Assembly (NCBI RefSeq): GCF_964020035.1
Contig: NZ_OZ026475.1
Span: forward strand, 248,001 to 312,000
Direction: 5' to 3'
Length of the DNA: 64,000 bases
Origin: Spiroplasma endosymbiont of Crioceris asparagi
GTDB taxonomy: Bacteria > Bacillota_I > Bacilli_A > Mycoplasmatales > Mycoplasmataceae
Both the position numbers and the translations under genes were made by a program. Below, piece after piece: positions 28,630 to 58,921 of this stretch (position 1 is the stretch's first letter; every line of letters starts with the position of its first letter). A model generated the notes under the pieces. The model had not been told where the DNA came from, made no database searches, and saw only the letters and a program-made list of their open reading frames with translations.

Positions 28630-29511
28630 ATGAAAAAATTATTAGGGTTATTAGGAGCTTTTGGTCTTGTTACTGCCGCTGGTGTTACAGTTGTTTCATG
28701 TGGACATAAAAAAGCGGAAAACGTGGAAAACATAAAAACATTAGCAGAATTATTAAGTGGAGTTACAATTGTTGATACACAATCAAAAGATGATGTTTTA
28801 AAAGCAATTAAAGCTAAATTAGGAAATGCAAACCTTAAAAGTGATTATGTAGTTGAATTTAGTAATAAAGATGTTGCTACATTAACAAAAGCTGAAACAA
28901 TTACTATCAAAGCATTACAAGATTTTAATATTGGTGATGCCATAGTTAAAGCAAATGATAGCTTCAAAATTACAGTTGCAGATGCCACAAAAGTAGAAAC
29001 AGTTAAGATTGCTGATATTCAAGCTGAAGCAGATAAAATAAAAGGTAAAAAAAATTTACCAGAAGTGCAAACAGCATTAAATGACATTGTTGCTTTAGAA
29101 AAATTTAAAGATAAAATTCAATCATTAACAGGTGAGAATATTGATGGACAACCAACCAACGTTAAAGTAACTATCGTTTTAAAACCAAACTACAAACTTG
29201 ATGTTAAAACAAATACAATTACAATTACTGGGGCAATACAAGATAATACTCCTAAAATAAAAATTAACGCTAAAGATATTAGTGATAAAATAACAATTTC
29301 AGGTTTTAAAACTATTGCAGAAGTCCAAAAACAACTAGATAAATTTGTTACTGGGACACCAGATTTTCCGGGAGTGATTCAATCATTAACAGCTAAAACT
29401 GATCCTGAAGAAAAAATTAATGTTATAGTAAAAATTAAATTAAATGAAGGATATGAACTTATAGGTGCTGATTGATTTAGAATTATAGGAGCAATTGACC
29501 CAAATAAATAA
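28630..29511 (+). CDS. Lipoprotein with two Lipoprotein-associated repeats
   Basis: A 293-residue lipoprotein with Cys24 after 'MKKLLGLLGAFGLVTAAG'. An N-terminal module ('LAELLSGVTIVDTQSKDDVL') is close to that of the 24627 protein ('LKILLSDLKINDSQTKKDV'). Two diverged repeat units follow, with 'QSLTGENIDGQPTNVKVTIV' and 'QSLTAKTDPEEKINVIVKI'. The first is near-identical in pattern to units of the 46964 lipoprotein. The end is 'WFRIIGAIDPNK' with Trp as TGA (29473-29475). It is a short, non-amplified relative of the two large repeat lipoproteins nearby. Confidence 0.85.
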
Positions 29512-34450: not shown

Positions 34451-36010
34451 ATGGAAAAAAATAAAGAAATTCAAAGAAATGAATTATATAAATCAATTGG
34501 TCATATAGCAAATGATTTAAGAGGTTCGGTTGACGGATGGGATTTTAAACAATATGTTTTAGGAACAATGTTTTATAGATATATTTCAGAAAATCTTTGC
34601 AATTACATAAATAAAGGAGAGCATGAAGCAGGAGTCTTAAATTTTGATTATGCAAAAATAAGCGATGAAATTGCTGTAAAAATAAAGGATGGCATAATTA
34701 AAGAAAAAGGTTTTTTTATATTACCTTCACAACTTTTTTGTAATGTAAGATTAAATTCTTTTAAAAATGAAAATTTAAACGAAACATTACAAGATGTATT
34801 TAAAAGCATTGAAAAATCTTCGAAAGGCACAGAATCCGAAAAGAATTTTAAAGGTTTATTTGATGATATTGATGTAAATTCTAAAAAATTGGGTCAGTCT
34901 GTTGAAAAAAGAAATAAAAATTGATCAAGAATTTTAAATGCTATTGGAGAAATGAAACTTGGTAAATATAAAGAGAATAATATTGATGCATTTGGTGATG
35001 CATATGAATATTTAATGTCAATGTATGCAAGTAATGCCGGAAAATCTGGTGGTGAATTTTTTACCCCACAAGAAGTTTCGGAACTTTTAACACGCTTAAC
35101 ATTGGTTAATAAAAGTGAAATAAATAAAATATATGATCCAGCATGTGGTTCAGGATCACTATTATTACAATCAATAAAAATAATTGGAAAAGAAAACATA
35201 AAAAATGGTTTTTATGGTCAAGAAATAAATGTTACTACATATAATCTTTGTAGAATTAATATGTTTTTGCATGACATTGACTTTGATAAATTTAATATAG
35301 AATGTGAAGACACTTTAATTTCACCACGTCATTTAGATGATCAACCATTTGATGTAATTGTTTCAAATCCACCTTATTCTATAAAGTGAGAAGGTAATAG
35401 CAATCCAGTTTTAATTAATGATTCTAGATTTTTAGGTCCAGGTGTTTTAGCACCAAAATCAAAAGCGGATTTTGCTTTTATTCTACATATTTTATCATCG
35501 CTTTCTGAAGACGGAGTTGCTGCAATTGTTTGTTTTCCAGGAATAATGTATAGAAATGGTGCTGAACAAAAAATTAGAAAATATTTAATTGATAAAAATT
35601 TTATTGATACAATAATATATCTTCCTGAAAATTTATTTTTTGGAACAACAATTTCGACTTATATTATGGTTTTAAAAAAACAAAAATTAGATCATAATGT
35701 TTTATTTATAGATGCATCTAATGAATACATAAATTTTAAAAAAAATAACAAATTAAGTTCTGAAAACATTAAAAACATTTTAAATTGTTTTGAAAATAGA
35801 CAAAATATTAATTTTTTTTCACATTTAGTTTCTTCTGAAGAAATTAAAGAAAATAATTATAATTTATTAATTTCTGATTATGTTGATAAAAAAAATTATG
35901 AAGTATTTACTGATATTAATTTTGTTAATAATGAGCTAGATAAATTGGTGAATGAAGCAAAAATTTTAAGAAATAAAATTGAAGTGTTAATTAATGGAGA
36001 AAAAAAATAA
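34451..36010 (+). CDS. hsdM: Type I restriction-modification methyltransferase subunit HsdM
   Basis: A 519-residue N6-adenine methyltransferase subunit. The N-terminal helical domain includes '[20 protein letters not shown]'. SAM motif I '[12 protein letters not shown]' lies near residue 235, and catalytic motif IV 'SNPPYSI' near 310. Another conserved piece is '[14 protein letters not shown]'. The C-terminal helices contact HsdS. Several TGA codons read as Trp. AGGGAGAAAA precedes the ATG. hsdS starts one base after its stop, and hsdR overlaps hsdS, so the three subunits form one operon. Confidence 0.96.
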
Positions 36011-36011
36011 T

Positions 36012-37190
36012 ATGTTAAATGTTGGTGAAATAATAACTTCAAATATTAATGAAAATATTGAGTTAAAATATTTATGAGAAGTTACTATTTGAGACAAAAA
36101 TTTTAGTAATTTAAAAGATATTGTTTTAAATAAAAAAATAAAGTATAAATATTTTTTAGTTAAAGATATAAAAAAAATAGTTAATAACAATGGAAATGTA
36201 AAAATATTAACAACCAATGAAACCAATTTATTTACAAGAGAAGAATTGGTTTTACCATTTCTTAATAAAGGACAAGTTGTTTGTATACCCGGTGGAGGAA
36301 ATCCCATAGTTCAATATTTTAATGGAACTTTTATAACCACTGATAATAGATTAGCTGTTTCATTTGATGAAAATATTTTAAGAACAAAGTATTTATATTA
36401 TTTTTTAAAAAATAATATAAATACTATTAAAAGCTTTTATAGGGGTTCTTCTTTGTTACACCCGGACATGTCTAAAATCTTAAAAATGCAAATACAAATA
36501 CCCACAATCAAACATCAGGATAATATTATATTTCTTTTAGATAATTTAAATTTATTAATAAATAAATTAAAAAATAATTTAAATTGCGAAATAAATCTTC
36601 GTAAGTTAATTATAAAAAAATATATAGAAAATAAAACAAATAGTTTTAAAGATTTTCTTTCTTTAAAAGAAGTATGTGCAATAAATACAGGAAAAAGATT
36701 AACAAGAGCAAATTTAAATAAAAAATCAAAATATCCTGTTTATCATGCCGGAATCAAGCCGCTTGGATACTATAATTATTCAAATGCGCCAAAAAATACA
36801 ACAATGATAATAAATACTGGCGATGCTGGAAAAATAGGTTTTTCTAAGGAAGATTTTTGATCTTCAGATGGTTGCTATTGGCTAAAATGTAATGATTCTT
36901 ATAACAATAAATTTTTGTATTATTTTTTATTATCAAAAGAAGATTTTCTTAAAAGTAAAATTAGAAAAGGCGGAATACCAACATTAAATAAAGAAGTTGT
37001 TCAAAAATTAAAGGTTCCATTTGTTAGTTATGAAGAACAAAATAATATTGTAACTTTTTTGGATAATTTGTTAGATTATAGTAATGAACTTATTAACAAT
37101 TTAAATTTAGAAATAAAAAATTTAGAAGTTAAGGAAAAATATTATATTAATAAATTATTTTCATATAAAAAGGAAATAAAAAATGATTAA
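36012..37190 (+). CDS. hsdS: Type I restriction specificity subunit HsdS
   Basis: A 392-residue DNA-recognition subunit with two half-repeats. The first target-recognition domain (about residues 15-165) ends 'YRGSSLLHPDMSKILKMQIQ', followed by a helical spacer starting 'HQDNIIFLLDNLNLLINKL'. The second (about 210-350) contains 'EVCAINTGKRLTRANL' and 'GGIPTLNKEVVQKLKVPF', then a matching helix 'EEQNNIVTFLDNLLDYSN'. The two halves bind a bipartite site. It is a single hsdS with no inverted copies in the window, so no phase-variable shufflon is seen. Confidence 0.93.
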
Positions 37191-40176
37191 AAAAAATGCA
37201 ACAGTAATTGAAGAATATGTTTTTCAAAATCAAAAATATAATAATTATTCAGAAAAAGATATTGAAGAGAAATTAATAGAAGTTTTAAAAAATGAATCTT
37301 ATGAACATCTTAAAATAAAAAGTGAAATAGAGTTAATCAAAAATTTAAGAAATAAAATTGAAAAATTAAATAACTTTTTATTTACAGATAATGAATGAAA
37401 AATTTTTTTCACAGAAATATTAGCAAATCCAAATAATGGAATTATAGAAAAAACCAAAATTATTCAAGAAGATTATAAACAAGTTGTAAAACTTGATAAT
37501 GGTAATTTTAAAAATATAAATTTAATTGACAAAAAAAATTTATATAATAATTGTTTACAAGTAATAAATCAATATTCGAATAAAACTGAAAATCATAGCA
37601 GTAGATATGATGTAACATTGCTTGTTAATGGTTTTCCACTTGTTCATATTGAATTAAAAAAAAGAGGTGTTTCTATAAAAGAAGCGTTTAACCAAATAGG
37701 CAGATATCAAAATGAATCTTTTTTTGCTGGAGCAGGGTTGTTTGAGTATATTCAAATTTTTGTAATATCTAATGAAATAAGAACTAAATATTATTCAAAT
37801 ACAACAAGAAAAGACAAAAGTCATAATTATAGTAAAAGTTTTGCATTTACTTCATACTGAACAGACAAAAATAATAACATAATAAATAATATTTTTGATT
37901 TTGCAAAATCATTTTTTAATAAAAACACTATTTTAAATATAATAACAAAATATTGTGTTCTTACTTCAGAAAATATGTTGTTAGTAATGAGACCATATCA
38001 AATAGTTGCTTCAGAATCAATAATAAATAAAATCAATTTTATAAATCATAATAATAATTTTGGTAAAAAAAATTCCGGTGGATATATTTGACACACAACA
38101 GGAAGTGGAAAAACATTAACCTCTTTTAAGACAGCAAAGTTAATAACTGAATTAGATTTTATTGAAAAAACGATTTTTGTTGTTGATAGAAAAGATCTAG
38201 ATTATCAAACAATAAAAGAATACGATAAATTTGAAAAGGGTGCTGCTAATTCAAATAATTCAACTGCTATTTTAAAAAAACAATTAGAAAGTTTTAACTC
38301 TAAAATTATAGTTACAACAATTCAAAAACTTTCAAATTTTGTTAAAAATAATAAAAATCATGTTTCTTTTAACAAAAATATTGTTTTTATTTTTGATGAG
38401 TGTCATAGATCTCAATTTGGAAAAATGCATTTAGAGTTAACAAGTAATTTTAAAAAATATTGTTTATTTGGTTTTACTGGAACACCTATTTTTGCAAATA
38501 ACATAAATAATAAAAATGATTATTATTTAAAAACTACAGAAGAAGTATTTGGAGAAAAGTTGCATTCTTATACGATAGCCGATGCAATTAAGGATCAAAA
38601 CGTTTTACCTTTTAAGGTAGATTTTGTCAATACAATAAAACAAAAAAATGAAGCATTGAATTCTAATTTTTATAATGTAGATAAAGAAAGTGCTTTTTTA
38701 AATTCAAAAAGAATAAAAAACATAACTGAATATATAATAAAAAATTTTGATAAAAAAACATACAAATCATATAATTACAAAAAAATTACAGAATCGAATG
38801 ATTCAAAAATAAAAGTATTAAATGGTTTTAATTCAATTTTAGCAGTATCTTCAATTAATGCAGCAAAAAAATATTATTCAGAATTCAAAAATCAATTAAA
38901 AACTGCTAAAAACAAATTAAAGGTAGCATTAATATATTCTTACTCGGTAAACGAAGAAGAAAATGATGGAATTCTTTATGAAGAAAATAATGAAAGTGTT
39001 TCAGAGTTGGATTATAACTCAAAACAATTTCTTGAAAATGCAATAAAAGATTACAACAATCTATTTAATACAAATTTTGATACAAGCTCAGATAAATTTA
39101 ACAATTATTATAAAGATTTATCGATTAGAGTTAAAAATAAAGAAATTGACATATTAATAGTGGTTAACATGTTTTTGACAGGATTTGATTCTCCAACGTT
39201 AAATACTTTATGAATTGATAAAAATTTAAAATCGCATGGTCTAATACAAGCCTTTTCAAGAACTAATAGAATTTTAAATTCTATCAAACAATTCGGTAAT
39301 ATTGTGTGTTTTAGAAATTTAGAAAAAGAAACCAATGATGCTATTAAAATGTTTGGTAATGATAATAATCTTGAATATGTTTTGTTAAAAAAATTTGATG
39401 ATTATTATAATGGTTTTACAAAAAGTAATGGAGAAAGGGTTCAGGGTTTTGTCGAAATTGCAAATCAATTATTAGAAAATTTTTCTTTAAGTAATGAATG
39501 AAATTTATCTAATAAAGAAAAAAATAGTTTTATTAAAATTTTTGGTAAATATTTAAAAATTAAAAATATATTAAAAACTTATGACGAATTTGAAAATAAA
39601 GAAATTCTTACTGTAGAGCAGGATCAAGAATATTGCGGAAAATACATTGATTTAAGAGAAGAATTAATTTTAAATAAAAATCAATTTGAAAATAAAGAAA
39701 TTAGTGACAATATAACATTTGAAATTGAACTTTTAAAAAATATTGAAATAAATATTGAATACATATTATTTTTAATAAAAAATAATATTAATGATTTAGA
39801 TAATTTAAATTTTAAAAAACAATTAAATAACGCAATATCATCTTCAATGAATTTAAGGACAAAAAAAGAATTAATTAATTTATTTATAATTGAAAATAGC
39901 AAAATCAATAATAATTTTATTGAGTGAAAGACTTTTATAAATAACAAAAAAGAATTTGATTTAAAAAAAATTATTAATACATACGGATTAAAAGAAGACG
40001 AAACCAGAACATTTCTAAAAAATTCTTTCGAATATAGATATATTAAAAAAATTGGAACGGACCTTGATAAAATAATGCCTAGAATTTCTCGTTTTTCTAA
40101 TGAAAATTATTATGTTAAAAAAACAAAAATAATAAAAGAATTGGAGAATTACTTTTATAATTATTTTGATATTTAA
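37183..40176 (+). CDS. hsdR: Type I restriction endonuclease subunit HsdR
   Basis: A 997-residue translocating endonuclease. The N-terminal nuclease domain has 'RYDVTLLVNGFPLVHIELKK' (PD-(D/E)xK type, near residue 140). The SF2 motor has Walker A 'HTTGSGKT' (~304), DECH box (~404), 'FTGTPIF' (~430), 'MFLTGFDSPTLNTLW' (~662) and 'LIQAFSRTNRI' (~686). A C-terminal helical region binds the methylase core. It starts inside hsdS (8-base overlap). In-frame TGA codons are Trp. It appears complete, so restriction should be active. Confidence 0.95.
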
Positions 40177-46963: not shown

Positions 46964-48619
46964 ATGAAAAAATTAATTGGGGTATTAGGAAGTTTTGGAT
47001 TTGTTGCAACAAGTGTAGTTACGACTGTAGCATGTGGACATAAAAGTGAAAATAAAACACTAAAAACAGATGACATTAAAAATAATGCCGATGTTAAAAA
47101 TATCATAGGTTTAGAAAACTTAGTTGCTGTTAACAACGCATTAGCTGATATTGCTAAAAAAATTGAAGGTGTGGATACATTAGTAGGAAAAGTTGATGAA
47201 AAACCAACTAATGTAAAAGTAACCATTACTTTAAAAGATGGATACAAACTTACAGGTGATAATTTTTTTGTAATTGAAGGTGCCATTAAAGCAAAAGATG
47301 TAGAAGTGAATATTGCTGATATTAAAAAAGAAGCAAATAAAATTCAAAAACAAAAAGATTTACCAACAGTTCAAGCAGAACTAAACAAAATCATTGCATC
47401 AGATGTCTTTAAAGACAAAATACAATCTTTAACAGGGGACGCCGTTAATGATCAACCAACTAATGTAACTGTCACAGTTGTTTTAAAAAAAGGCTTTAAA
47501 CTTGATACTGATAATAATACTTTTGTAATTGAAGGTGCCATTAAAGCAAAAGATGTAAAAGTGGAAATTGCTGATATTAAAAAAGAAGCAAATAAAATTC
47601 AAAAACAAAAAGATTTACCAACAGTTCAAGCAGAACTAAACAAAATCGTTGCATCAGATGCTTTTAAAGACAAAATAAAATCTTTAACAGGGGACGCCGT
47701 TAATGATCAACCAACTAATGTAACTGTCACAGTTGTTTTAAAAGAAGGTTTTAAACTTGATACTGATAATAATACTTTTGTAATTGAAGGTGCCATTAAA
47801 GCAAAAGATGTAGAAGTGAATATTGCTGATATTAAAAAAGAAGCAAATAAAATTCAAAAACAAAAAGATTTACCAACAGTTCAAGCAGAACTAAACAAAA
47901 TCATTGCATCAGATGTCTTTAAAGACAAAATACAATCTTTAACAGGGGACGCCGTTAATGATCAACCAACTAATGTAACTGTCACAGTTGTTTTAAAAAA
48001 AGGCTTTAAACTTGATAATGATAATAATACTTTTGTAATTGAAGGTGCTATTGAATCAAAGGTCATTAATATTGATGCTATTAAAACAAAAGTAAATACT
48101 GCTATAGCTGGTAAGGGATTGGCTAATTTAGAAGAAGTTCAAAAAAAATTAAAAGAACTTAATATTCCTAATGTGACATTTACGGTGACACTAAAAGATA
48201 AAAGTCCAAAAAATGTTGAAGTTACAGTTGTTCCAAATAAAGGATTTACTCTTAATTCAGATACTGATTCATTTGTTGTTGAAAATGCGATTAATTTAAT
48301 AAATGATATTTCTATTATTGGCGGTAAGATGCTTTTTGTTTCTACATTTGATGGTCAAAAAAACCCATATACATTTGAAGATGCTCAAACCAAAGCAATT
48401 GAGTCTGTAATTAAATGTGCTAGAGATCCACATTACAAATATAAAGATCAATTTCAGGATTTACATGAAAATGACTTATGCGCAGAAAAAGACACTTATG
48501 TTCCTGATGGACCTAATATAAGAGGACAAATATGTGTAATAACAAAAGAGGGGTCTAAGTATAAAGGAAGACTATATCTTAATGTACAAGGATACACCCC
48601 CCCCAAACAATTAAATTAA
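46964..48619 (+). CDS. Mosaic surface lipoprotein with 255-bp repeats
   Basis: A 551-residue lipoprotein with Cys24 after 'MKKLIGVLGSFGFVATSV'. The first repeat unit (residues ~35-108) is of the type amplified in the 24627 gene. Three 85-residue units of another type follow ('KKEANKIQKQKDLPTVQ', 'FKLDTDNNTFVIEGAI'), resembling the 28630 lipoprotein. A diverged unit and a C-terminal domain ('EDAQTKAIESVIKCA', 'YKGRLYLNVQGYTP') come last; that domain matches the second module of the 24627 protein. So it combines parts of at least two other loci. GGAG precedes the ATG. Confidence 0.88.
   Translation: MKKLIGVLGSFGFVATSVVTTVACGHKSENKTLKTDDIKNNADVKNIIGLENLVAVNNALADIAKKIEGVDTLVGKVDEKPTNVKVTITLKDGYKLTGDNFFVIEGAIKAKDVEVNIADIKKEANKIQKQKDLPTVQAELNKIIASDVFKDKIQSLTGDAVNDQPTNVTVTVVLKKGFKLDTDNNTFVIEGAIKAKDVKVEIADIKKEANKIQKQKDLPTVQAELNKIVASDAFKDKIKSLTGDAVNDQPTNVTVTVVLKEGFKLDTDNNTFVIEGAIKAKDVEVNIADIKKEANKIQKQKDLPTVQAELNKIIASDVFKDKIQSLTGDAVNDQPTNVTVTVVLKKGFKLDNDNNTFVIEGAIESKVINIDAIKTKVNTAIAGKGLANLEEVQKKLKELNIPNVTFTVTLKDKSPKNVEVTVVPNKGFTLNSDTDSFVVENAINLINDISIIGGKMLFVSTFDGQKNPYTFEDAQTKAIESVIKCARDPHYKYKDQFQDLHENDLCAEKDTYVPDGPNIRGQICVITKEGSKYKGRLYLNVQGYTPPKQLN
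47288..48052 (+). repeat. Three tandem 255-bp coding repeats
   Basis: Units start at 47288, 47543 and 47798 (85 codons). Units 1 and 3 are almost identical; unit 2 differs at several codons (for example VKVE for VEVN, and 'VASDAF' for 'IASDVF'). Confidence 0.92.
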
Positions 48620-54350: not shown

Positions 54351-55613
54351 ATGAAACAATTTAATGTAATAGAGTTTTTTTCGGGAATTGGTGCTCAAAA
54401 AAAAGCATTAGAAATTTTAAAAGAAAATAAAATTTTAGATTACAAAATAGTGGGAACTAGTGATTGGGATGTTTGAGCAAACATTTCTTATAATTTAATT
54501 CATAATAAAAATGACAACAATGAAATAAGTGAAGAAGAAATTGATGATTTTCTTTCTAAATTTACGCATTCATTAGATTCTAAAAATCCTACAAATTTTT
54601 TAAAAATTAAACAATTAGATTTTAAAATAAAAAAATTATTATATGACGCATATAAGAATTCAAACAATATGGGTTCTATAATTAATATTGATGGAAAAAA
54701 ATTACCCAAATGTGACATTTTAACTTACTCATTTCCATGCCAAGATTTATCTAACGCTGGTAAAAACTTGGGTATGTCTAAAGAATCAAACACGAGATCA
54801 GGATTACTATGAGAAGTAGAAAGAATTTTGGAAGAAGCTAATCAAGAAAATAATTTACCAAGATATTTGCTATTGGAGAATGTTAGAAATTTAGTTTCAA
54901 GTAGACATTCAAAAGAGTATATAGAGTGATTAGAAAAATTAAAATCATTAGGTTATTCAACCAAAACCTATTTATTAAATAGCTTTAATTATGGTTCTGT
55001 TCAAAAAAGAATTAGAGTTTTTGCATTAAGTATTTTAGACGGTGATAAAATTAATTTTGTAGATGACTATTTTAAAAATAAAAAATTAATTTCAGAAGAA
55101 AATCCTAAAGATATTTCATCAAATTTAAAATTAAAACAATCTTTAGAAAAAATAATAGATATTAGTTACACGAAATATTTGCACGAAGCTAAAGAAGCAA
55201 TTCCCAATGATACGCCTTCGAGAAAAAAAATATATGATAAAAATCCTAAAATTTTTTCAAATAATAAAGAAGATATTATGGGTGAAAAGACAAAAACTAA
55301 AAACGGTTACTATTCTAGATGAGTGAGAACAATAACAACAAAGCAGGATAGACATCCTAATGCCGGGGTAATTAGTATTAAAAAATCTAAAATTGATGAA
55401 GGGAAAAATAGCTATCGTTTTCTTACGCCAAGAGAAACATTTAAAATTATGGGATTTTCGAATAACGATTTTGATAAAATTAAAGAAAAAGAAATTATAA
55501 GAAATGATGTTTTGTATAGACAAGCAGGAAATTCAATTGTTGTAAATGTTTTAGTTGCAATATTTAATGAAATATTAATTGCAGAAAAAAAATTTGGTGA
55601 ATTAAATGAATAA
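54351..55613 (+). CDS. DNA cytosine-C5 methyltransferase
   Basis: A 420-residue m5C methyltransferase. Motif I 'VIEFFSGIGAQKKALEI' binds SAM; motif IV 'SFPCQDLS' holds the catalytic Cys (about residue 130); motif VI reads 'LLENVRN'; motif VIII 'GSVQKRIRVF'; motif X 'VLYRQAGNSIVVNVL'. All are in standard order, with the target-recognition region between about residues 230 and 330. AGGAG precedes the ATG. It overlaps the next gene by 8 bases. The target sequence cannot be read. It presumably marks host DNA for the DUF262 system downstream. Confidence 0.94.
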
Positions 55614-56256
55614 TTTAGATAATTTTGGAGAAAAAGTTTCAAAAATATGTTTTGAATTAAGTGGTATTAAAGGTATTGAAAAATATAATAATGAGTGATG
55701 AAAAATAAAAACATCTTTTTTTAGTATTGTTGAAAAAGCGTTTTATTTTAATTTTACAAAACAAAAATTTCTAAAAATTAAAATTAAAGAAAAAGATATT
55801 TATTTAGGAGAAAACAAAAATGGAATTAATGTGTCAACTTTTGGACAATATTTTAGAGTCTGACTAACCTTCGGTGTAATTGATTTTGATGAAGAATTTA
55901 ATAATTATAATAAGTTTAGTTCCTTAATAAAAAATATAAAAACAATTAAGTTTTCTAATTATTTTTTAACATCTAATGACGCTACACAATATTTTTTAGA
56001 AATGAAGCCGATTGATATTATACAAAAAAACTTATTTTTATTAAAAGGGAAAAGCTTTTTGGCAGACACAATTATTAAAACAATTTTTACAATTTCAATT
56101 TATATTACAAAATTTTATTTTAATTATTTAGATGAGGTTATGTGTCAATATATTTCTGGTACAAAAAATTATAAAATTTCTACAAAAAATAGTATAATAG
56201 CGGAATATAAAGGACAAAGAAAAATAGTTAAATTAATAAAAATAGGGGAAAAATAA
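55606..56256 (+). CDS. Unknown protein in a restriction-like operon
   Basis: A 216-residue unrecognised protein. It starts inside the methyltransferase (ATGAATAA overlap) and ends one base before the DUF262 gene, so it belongs to the same operon. It is rich in Phe, Ile and Lys and contains a 'FGQYFRVWLTFGVIDFDEEF' beta-like stretch and a helix ('KSFLADTIIKTIFTISIYIT') hydrophobic enough to be buried. No nuclease motif is evident. It may be a specificity, inhibitor or assembly factor of the system. Confidence 0.7.
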
Positions 56257-56257
56257 T

Positions 56258-58750
56258 ATGCATATGAATAAAAATTGAAAAGAAATAAATGAATTTTTAA
56301 TGACAATAAATGGGAATGAGTATTTAGAAGAATTATTAAAAGAAAATAATCTAGACAAAACTAATCACATTTCTGTTGAAGCTAGAAGATTAATGGAATA
56401 TTTGTTTAAGTATATATTAGACTCAAAGGGTTTTAGAATCGAAAAAAACGATCCAACTTTAATTAAATTAATTAATGATTTAAAACAATATTATTTTGAT
56501 GAAAACAATGGAATTGCATGACCAAAAGATGTTGATTTTTCCATTCATCACATTAGGCTAGTTGGTAATTCATATTTGCATCCGGATGATTTCGGAGCAC
56601 TCCGTATTAAAAAGAATGATTTTAATTCTAATTTGCAAATTTTAAAATACATTCATTTTTTAATTCAATTTTTAATTAAAAATTTTTTTAATTCAAATTT
56701 TCAAATAAAAGAATTTGATGACGAAATATATTACGAAAATTTTAATAAAACAAGACACATTTTTGATGTTAAAAAAAATGAAATTAAAATTGAAAATGAT
56801 TCATTAAAGTTAAAAAAACTTACAATTTCAGAATTAATATTAAATGAAAATTTTTTATTTTTTATTCCATCTTACCAAAGAAAATATAAATGAAATGAAA
56901 CAAATTGCGAAGAGCTAATTAAAAATATTATTGCAAAATATAAAACTGACGATAGACAAGAATATTTTGGACCCATGGCAATAACATTAGAAACCGATAA
57001 TAGTGATAAGAAAAATGTAACTTTAAGAATGATAGATGGTCAACAAAGAATTACTACTTCAATAATTTTGTTTAAAGTTTTATATGAAATTATGCTTGAA
57101 AAAAAATGCAAAAACATACCTTTTGATTTGTCTAATATTTTTAAAAGTAAAGATTTATTGGAAATTAAATATAAAAATGCAACCGAAGATGAAATTGAAA
57201 GACAAGCTATTGAAATAATAATAAATAATAACTTGTCGTTTGGATACAAAAGTTATGATTTAATTCGTTATGCTAGTGAAAATTCAAATGCAGCAAAAAA
57301 TTATTTATTTTTTTATAACTATTTAAATAAAAAAGATTTTAGCGAAGAAGATATTATAGAAATATATGAATATTTTGCAAATCAATATGTTGTTTCATGT
57401 ATAGATTTTAAAAAAGAACCTAATGAAGAAATGGAAATATTTGAAAATTTAAATTCAAAAGGAACAGAATTAACTGCTTTTGATATGTTTAAAAACTTTT
57501 TATTTAATATTATTAATAAACAAGATTTTATTAAAAATGAAAATAAAATAGTTTCAAAATTTAAAGAATATTTATCATTTGAAAAAATGAGTCAATCAAT
57601 AAATAGAAAACCGCAAATAAAAATAATAGATGATATGGAAGAAGAATTTTTGTTTTATTTTTGTTTGTATAAATCAAAAAATGGCGATTTAAAAAAAGAT
57701 AAAAAGAGTATTCTAAGAGTTATTAAGAATGATATTTTTAATAAAAAAGAAAATATATCGTTTGAAGAATATAAAAACCTTATTGAAGAAATAGGGAAAT
57801 ATGCATATATTTATTTTTCTTTTAAAATTAAAGCTTATAAAAATGATAAAAATAATTTTTTATATCATTTTGCAAAAAATTTAAATAATCTAGAACATAA
57901 AGAAGTAACACAATTATTTTTATTTTTCTTAGTTGATGTATATGGAAAAAATAAATGATTTGCGTTAAAAAAACAATTTAGTTTTACAAAAACTGATTAT
58001 TTTAAAAAATGTTTATTTCAATTAGAAAAATGATACGTTTCATTAATACAAGTTTATGGTACAGGTCAATCACTAACGAAACCGCTAATCAAATTAATTA
58101 ATTTTTTAAGTTTTTACGATTTTCAAAATAGTTCTTATTTAGAAACATTACCAAAAATTATAGAAAGATGATTTAATTGTGAAGGAAAAGATTCAATAAC
58201 AATTGTAGATGAAGCTCAAAATAACTATTTTCAAGATTCTTATTCTAATTTAAAAACACCTTCAGAAGAACAATTTGAAAATTCTATAAAGAATGGTGAA
58301 ATTAAAGATCAAAACATTGCTTTAATATTATTAAGAAGAATAGAAGAAAAAGAATTAGAAGTAAATGAACAAATTTATAGAGAAAAAAATTCTTTAGAAC
58401 ATATAATGCCTCAAAAACTAAATCAAAAGTGATTAGAAGAATTAAGGGAATTTTATCCAAATAAAAATGACTCATGAATATTAGATAAACATAAAGAAAT
58501 GAATAATTATTTAGGAAATTATGCTTTTTTAGATAAAAATGACAATTCAAAACTTAAAAATAGAGAATTTAGCTTTAAGTTAAAACAAATTTATAGTAAG
58601 TCTAAATGTCCATTATTTACAATGGATTTTGTAATTCCTCAAAATGACGAAATAAAAAATATTTTAAAATTAGAAAAATTTGATTTTGAAATTATTAAAG
58701 CTAGAAACTCTAAAATGGCTCGTATTGCTGCAAATATTTATTATGAATAA
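56258..58750 (+). CDS. DUF4145-like + DUF262 + DUF1524 (GmrSD-like) restriction protein
   Basis: An 830-residue protein. Residues ~25-150 ('VEARRLMEYLFKYILDSKGF', 'FSIHHIRLVGNSYLHPDDFG') resemble DUF4145. DUF262 (ParB/GmrS-like NTP-handling domain) begins near 195: 'PSYQRKYKWN', 'RMIDGQQRITTS' (~258) and 'FENLNSKGTELTAFDMFKNF' (~395). A DUF1524 HNH-like nuclease end has 'SLEHIMPQKLNQKW' (~712) and 'YLGNYAFLDKNDNSKLKNRE'. This is the one-chain GmrSD arrangement of type IV-like restriction. Start: the first ATG, AGGGG eleven bases upstream; a second ATG is two codons on. Many TGA codons are Trp. Confidence 0.88.
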
Positions 58751-58770: not shown

Positions 58771-58890
58771 TAGTCTAGCGCAATTAATAGCCTGTTAATG
58801 TTTACATAGCCCTATCATTTAGACATTATTTATTTTATTTGTAAATTTAAGCTAGACTATAAACCCAGTGCTCCGCCCGAGCACTTTTTT
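58771..58890 (+). ncRNA. Likely ~120-nt structured small RNA
   Basis: A promoter lies just upstream. AGTCTAGC (58772-58779) pairs with GCTAGACT (about 58851-58858). Inside, TTTACA pairs with TGTAAA, giving a long imperfect rod. A GC-rich terminator hairpin closes it. No ORF fits, and it shows none of the features I know for SRP RNA, RNase P or tmRNA. M. capricolum is known to make small stable RNAs of similar size (MCS series), but a match to any of them cannot be made by eye. Confidence 0.62.
58867..58890 (+). terminator. Terminator of the small RNA
   Basis: AGTGCTC / GAGCACT stem, CGCCC loop, T run. It is unusually GC-rich for the region. Confidence 0.9.
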
Positions 58891-58921
58891 ATTTGTCAAA
58901 ATAAAAAATAGGGAAAAGAAT

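Follow-up and report, generated by a model that had tools for sequence, protein, structure and literature searches.

We analysed a window of 64,000 nucleotides (positions 248,001 to 312,000 of the forward strand of contig NZ_OZ026475.1, assembly GCF_964020035.1) from the Spiroplasma endosymbiont of Crioceris asparagi, a small, wall-less Mollicute with a genome of 701 kb. Towards the end of this window lies a cassette of three genes, which encode a cytosine-C5 DNA methyltransferase (M), a middle protein made of a module named S here, and a large DUF262 protein (R). Our analysis indicates that the cassette is probably a 5-methylcytosine (m5C) restriction-modification (R-M) system with a nucleoside triphosphate (NTP)-dependent restriction arm of the GmrSD type and a specificity module that is either separate or fused. 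This reading is based on the strict linkage of M and R, the tracking of M by S, the homology among S modules, their fusions to nucleases, the exchange of restriction arms, and the DndI/SspE-like fold predicted for R.

All three open reading frames are intact under genetic code 4, in which TGA is read as tryptophan (4 such codons in M, 3 in the middle gene, and 8 in the large gene), while under translation table 11 the genes are fragmented. M overlaps the middle gene by 8 nt and the large gene follows after a gap of 1 nt, so the packing is operon-like. Under table 4, the coordinates, the overlap, the 1-base gap, and the 830 residues of R are exactly those given in a preliminary description of this DNA. 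The features are as follows.

54351-55613, + strand: cytosine-C5 DNA methyltransferase M, 420 aa (Pfam PF00145, 8e-58; best solved relative M.MpeI, 4dkj/8c56, 1e-56)
55335-55367, + strand: target-recognition motif TTKQDRHPNAG of M (alignment of about 50 relatives; DNA-pattern search)
55606-56256, + strand: middle protein, 216 aa, a stand-alone S module, putatively for target recognition (profile-profile homology)
55699-55899, + strand: S-module core W-x-I-x-T ... T-x-x-Q-Y-x-x-V-x-x-x-F-G-x-I (hhalign-aligned region; invariant residues)
56258-58750, + strand: DUF4145-like/DUF262/DUF1524 protein R, 830 aa, proposed NTP-dependent restriction subunit (Pfam GmrSD_N and GmrSD_C; AlphaFold2 (AF2) model; fold search)
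56375-56644, + strand: DUF4145-like (HEPN-like) helical domain of R (profile matches of relatives; helices in the AF2 model)
56840-57505, + strand: DUF262/GmrSD_N (ParB-like NTPase) domain of R, with DGQQR at 57035-57049 (Pfam; motif alignment)
58262-58723, + strand: DUF1524/GmrSD_C HNH nuclease domain of R, with EHIMP at 58397-58411 (Pfam; motif alignment)
58867-58893, + strand: terminator-like hairpin AGTGCTC-CGCCC-GAGCACT plus a T run, 3′ of the cassette (consensus match only)

Linkage of M and R and exchange of the restriction arm

Our sample of the window's family comprised 60 genomes, 24 positive for M and 36 negative. A strong homolog of R was found in 22 of the 60, all of them among the 24 M-positive genomes and none among the 36 M-negative ones (22/24 vs 0/36; Fisher test, 2e-14). 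M is in the same block and on the same strand as R in 22/22, and the two usually overlap or lie within 60 nt of each other, an intervening S gene aside. One of the 22 genomes (G064) has a decayed copy with all parts broken. The preliminary description had counted a lack of co-occurrence of the DUF262 gene in relatives as part of what would speak against its reading, and co-occurrence of the DUF262/DUF1524 gene with the methyltransferase was found. The three-gene layout that it described is one among several in a wider system, in which the middle gene is a mobile S module.

In an independent scan of another collection, M adjoined R in 5/5 Mollicute loci. At the other DUF262 loci of that scan, an m5C methyltransferase was present in only 1 of 75, and it was of a different kind and without the recognition motif. 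None of 17 DUF262 loci on viral contigs had this methyltransferase or S, and the five DUF262 matches in phages were weak. In Mycoplasmopsis gallopavonis and M. cynos (Metamycoplasmataceae), the pair of M and R is annotated as well, with no system name given to it. Cassettes of this kind are common across mycoplasma relatives. A Pfam search of the source genome gave a single GmrSD_N match and a single cytosine-C5 methyltransferase gene.

The trees of the two proteins disagree. In the M tree, G103 groups with G057 and G109, and G118 with G106 and G156, whereas in the R tree they fall in different, well-supported groups. G103 and G109 share 78% identity in M vs 25% in R, and G118 and G106 share 68% vs 25%; over the exchanged systems, identity is 75-78% and 68% for M and 23-25% for R. 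This conflict and the gap in identity indicate, at the sequence level, at least two replacements of the restriction arm while the methyltransferase stayed similar. Such an exchange would fit arms that are obliged to respect the same mark.

About a dozen family genomes (loci L070, L071, L074, L076, L077, L080, L081, and L089-L092) encode a PLD-nuclease/helicase of 930-1016 aa upstream of M and on its strand; the window does not have it. Its PADLOC label is type IV mREase (1e-75), which is odd beside an m5C methyltransferase. In L097 and L098, S and DUF262 adjoin a short methyltransferase-like protein of another kind (258-264 aa, motif PPCESWS); from these two loci, the S/R arms may also work with modification enzymes other than M.

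The middle protein and related S modules

The middle protein had no match in Pfam, NCBIfam, or PADLOC, S had none in a profile search of the PDB, and a pattern search of another genome collection found no relatives of the middle gene. The preliminary description had considered that the middle protein could be a known type II endonuclease, and the family searches matched it to none. Its relatives in the three-gene layout were found in G047, G073, and G135; the versions in G121 and G076 are long, and the one in G064 is decayed. The long versions run on into a PD-(D/E)XK (NOV_C) nuclease.

The S module was identified in 21 of the 22 R-positive family systems, where it lies between the genes, lies downstream, or is fused to the DUF262 protein. 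Distantly similar forms have about 220 aa when located after R and, in other families, about 176 aa when they separate M from R; the module also forms the N-terminus of R proteins of 865-920 aa. At loci with M but without DUF262, HNH proteins of about 405 aa begin with S. Beside the same M, it is fused ahead of HNH_2 in L115 and L120 (over the cut-off) and ahead of a NOV_C/PD-(D/E)XK nuclease in L112 (2e-8). With 1.6e-12, slightly under the cut-off, L120 also matches the NCBIfam family MAG4270, "putative restriction endonuclease".

Comparison by hhalign gave scores of 42-129 for nearly all pairs among the five main groups (MID, DOWN220, MID176, HNH400N, and D262longN), the weakest pair being HNH400N vs D262longN with 35.5, while the controls against 15 unrelated families each reached at most 19.1. 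T36 and Q81 were invariant over 21 S modules. These sequence similarities support a common descent of the S modules across layouts and nucleases. Because this domain precedes nucleases of three unrelated types beside the same kind of methyltransferase, S is best read as a target-recognition (specificity) module. An S module joined to a self-contained nuclease beside M has, as judged from its domains, the anatomy of a type II R-M system. The shared S module and the arm exchange further make it likely that the endonuclease and M recognise the same site. No S module was found at 11 Mollicute DUF262 loci without this M; those loci are also more distant, and this absence is weaker evidence than the linkage of M and R.

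In NCBIfam, three of the 21 S modules had weak matches (best 0.0012) to DpdG, which belongs to the 7-deazaguanine DNA modification system; we take these matches as a lead and not as evidence. In L083 (G121), the order after M is an S-PD-(D/E)XK protein, a DUF262 gene that is broken, and another S module; one M here has two restriction arms behind it, of which one is apparently decaying.

The methyltransferase, the large protein, and the flanks

The METHYLTRANSFERASE of the cassette is a cytosine-C5 enzyme (Pfam DNA_methylase, 8e-58), in which the motifs FSGIG, PCQ, ENV, QKRIR, and GNS are all intact. Its nearest solved or characterised relative is the CpG methyltransferase M.MpeI (PDB 4dkj, 8c56). 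When about 50 relatives were aligned, a motif close to TTKQDRxPNxG was common to nearly all M proteins of linked systems but not present in M.MpeI. The DNA pattern of TTKQDRHPNAG was found in 15 of the 60 family genomes and its reversed control in none. Among the Mollicute CpG methyltransferases M.MpeI and M.SssI, then, M.MpeI is the nearest characterised enzyme to M, but M carries TTKQDRHPNAG where M.MpeI has GPTLTASGANSRIKI. As the recognition motifs differ, CpG is not to be assumed as the target of M. A word-avoidance test on the source genome (464 kb) gave no target site. Depletion of CATG and GATC was rejected as a target signal, since it is general among genomes and without link to the system.

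M is split near residue 345 in L116 (G180) and L082 (G186), and its last 60-75 residues lie on the opposite strand, past a segment bounded by inverted repeats (L116: 5764-5791/7124-7151, 28 nt at 100%; L082: 5163-5183/9033-9053, 21 nt at 90%). A 243-aa tyrosine-recombinase-like gene abuts, and in L082 the segment also includes S and R. The split M with its inverted repeats is probably an invertible on/off switch.

R contains GmrSD_N/DUF262 at residues 195-416 (Pfam, 1e-29) and GmrSD_C/DUF1524 at residues 669-822 (Pfam, 1e-15), and the invariant motifs IPxYQRxYxW, DGQQR, EHIMP, and GN are all present. The intact DGQQR predicts that the DUF262 domain uses NTP, on the hydrolysis of which type II restriction does not depend. 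These two domains had been proposed in the preliminary description together with a DUF4145-like one, which is less secure: the N-terminus of the window protein matches DUF4145 with E = 0.073, and among 13 relatives four match it (best 0.0013) and one matches HEPN_Apea. The HEPN nuclease-type motif RNxxxH is kept in this domain in most relatives (L070-L081). The window protein has GNSYLH in its place, so an RNase role appears unlikely in the window protein and possible in the relatives. In PADLOC, R came near the Orf5, HEC-06, and SspE models only. The AF2 model of R had a pLDDT (predicted local distance difference test score) of 80, and its closest solved folds were DndI (9jfl, Z 21.0, 524 residues), SspE (Z 18.7), and BrxU (Z 14.2).

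Around the cassette, the stem-loop of the terminator-like hairpin (58867-58885) was found once vs 0.5 times expected from shuffling, and promoter-like sites were no more frequent than in shuffled sequence. An empty-site comparison within the genus found no clear syntenic counterparts of the flanking genes. The window has a separate, apparently intact R-M locus of type I at 34451-40176 (hsdM, hsdS, and hsdR by reading). Lipoprotein-like genes lie at 46964-48619, with several near-identical internal repeats, and at 28630-29511.

Proposed mechanism, alternatives, and known systems

We propose that M would methylate a short site in the host DNA and that S would bind this same site when it is unmethylated. 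The DUF262 domain of R would bind and hydrolyse NTP to check or release the DNA, and the HNH domain would nick or cut at or near unmethylated sites, like DndI on DNA without phosphorothioate. Recognition by S, protection by M, and cutting by R are inferred from gene content, linkage, homology, arm exchange, and the predicted fold of R. The preliminary description had suggested that methylation protects and the DUF262-HNH protein attacks unmethylated DNA. The comparative evidence favours this logic, which is not new in itself, as DndI and SspE are precedents.

Several results weigh against this reading. When word avoidance was compared between 21 system-positive and 17 negative genomes, none of 736 patterns came near the Bonferroni limit. 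Several S and fused modules and some of the counts were found with profiles from the same loci. G032 has an intact M and R (66% and 64% identity to those of G073) and no S, so either S is not always needed or the G032 system is crippled. The AF2 model of the middle protein, built from five remote sequences, was unusable (pLDDT 36). Furthermore, according to the summaries of PMC8565348 in PMC12707154 and PMC10952713, m5C DNA is cut by BrxU, which has the same fold as R, and the fold alone is thus compatible with the opposite logic.

In the same kind of R-M system, the middle protein might instead regulate or stabilise R, for example by holding R back until after M has acted, and R itself would read the site. 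Control of R by small operon-encoded proteins is common among type II systems, and the lack of a middle protein in G032 agrees with such a role. However, the fusion of S to three kinds of nuclease (HNH, PD-(D/E)XK, and DUF262-HNH) fits a DNA-reading domain better, and we regard the regulatory role as unlikely, though with an appreciable chance. Somewhat more doubtful is self-sensing like that of SspE, whose activity depends on phosphorothioate modification of the host DNA (PMC9646914). Here R would bind the host m5C sites, which would stimulate its NTPase and license the nickase against foreign DNA, so that modification would activate and not just protect. This would also account for the strict linkage of M and R, and SspE is among the closest folds. 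The closest one, however, is DndI, where modification protects and the nuclease is toxic without it, and S fused to plain HNH or PD-(D/E)XK resembles ordinary sequence-specific enzymes.

Improbable, in our view, is a type IV logic, in which R is directed against foreign DNA that carries modified cytosines of other kinds, M belongs to a separate system or sets the host DNA apart, and defence islands bring the genes together. GmrSD and BrxU are type IV enzymes, with m5C accepted by BrxU (PMC8565348, PMC12707154), and the helicase matching the type IV mREase model lies upstream of M in several relatives. But chance within islands does not yield a same-strand, often overlapping linkage in every R-positive genome vs none of the M-negative ones, S tracks M, and an m5C-cutting R would hit the host sites made by M unless the contexts differ. 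Finally, it is very improbable that the actual endonuclease, or what remains of it, is the middle protein, with the DUF262 protein as an accessory: the long homologs in G121 and G076 carry PD-(D/E)XK after the same N-terminal module, but the window protein stops after S without nuclease motif or family match, and it is the DUF262 gene rather than the middle one that is the constant partner.

Annotations usually class DUF262-DUF1524 genes as type IV enzymes against modified DNA. If the cassette is the R-M system proposed here, a whole lineage of these enzymes does the opposite with ordinary m5C, and the many neighbours annotated as "DNA (cytosine-5-)-methyltransferase" and "DUF262 domain-containing protein" in mycoplasmas would be accounted for. 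The swapped nuclease arms would be a natural set in which to study the coupling of self/non-self reading to cutting, and such systems may affect DNA delivery into laboratory strains of Mesoplasma, Spiroplasma, and mycoplasmas. We give about even credence to a wider, modular class of m5C R-M systems in Mollicutes, in which one kind of specificity module would steer interchangeable nuclease arms (GmrSD-type NTPase-HNH, plain HNH, and PD-(D/E)XK) to the site of a conserved M when this site is unmethylated. Such a class would bring GmrSD-type proteins, which are known mainly as type IV enzymes, into restriction from which base methylation protects.

Among known systems, IscS-DndBCDE-DndI likewise has a single DUF262-DUF1524 HNH protein with DGQQR as its restriction arm, and its modification spares self DNA. 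DndI nicks DNA without phosphorothioate and harms cells that do not carry the modification; ATP hydrolysis is believed to let it come off modified self DNA (PMC11662687). By analogy, it provides a working precedent for the proposed logic. It differs from the cassette in that phosphorothioate is made by a multi-protein machine rather than m5C by one enzyme, in the lack of a small S gene, and in that DndI has no DUF4145-like N-terminus. SspABCD-SspE (PMC9646914) also ties a DUF262-DUF1524 arm to DNA modification, but it uses phosphorothioate, SspE activity is modification-dependent, and there is no S gene. None of the three cassette proteins matched dnd or ssp genes, except R to the SspE models. 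The type IV enzymes GmrSD and BrxU share with R the two domains and the DGQQR and HNH motifs, and the NTP dependence of their class is predicted for R; however, they stand alone, cut DNA with modified cytosines, and act without a cognate methyltransferase, unlike R, which by gene content has M in its block.

The MAG4270 family of Mollicutes (NCBIfam NF045952), which matches the C-terminal half of L120, where S lies next to the same kind of methyltransferase, differs in having S fused to a plain HNH nuclease and no DUF262 NTPase. Type I R-M systems (HsdRMS) have separate M, S, and R functions and an NTP-using R, as is proposed for the cassette. However, the cassette has none of their N6-methyladenine (m6A)-forming HsdM, HsdS with two target-recognition domains, or helicase-type HsdR: it would form m5C, its R is a DUF262-HNH protein rather than a helicase-nuclease, and its S is unrelated in sequence. 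It shares with type II systems the linkage of a methyltransferase to a restriction protein, and with DndI and SspE the coupling of a DUF262-DUF1524 protein to a DNA modification enzyme. The literature searched held no description of a system of DUF262 and an m5C methyltransferase; many subscription papers were outside its scope, and the pair may be in REBASE. The remark of the preliminary description that no system with exactly these three parts is known thus stands for this pair in that literature, but not for the DUF262-DUF1524 arm itself. What is already known is a DUF262-HNH arm coupled to modification, as in DndI and SspE, and what would be new is its use with m5C.

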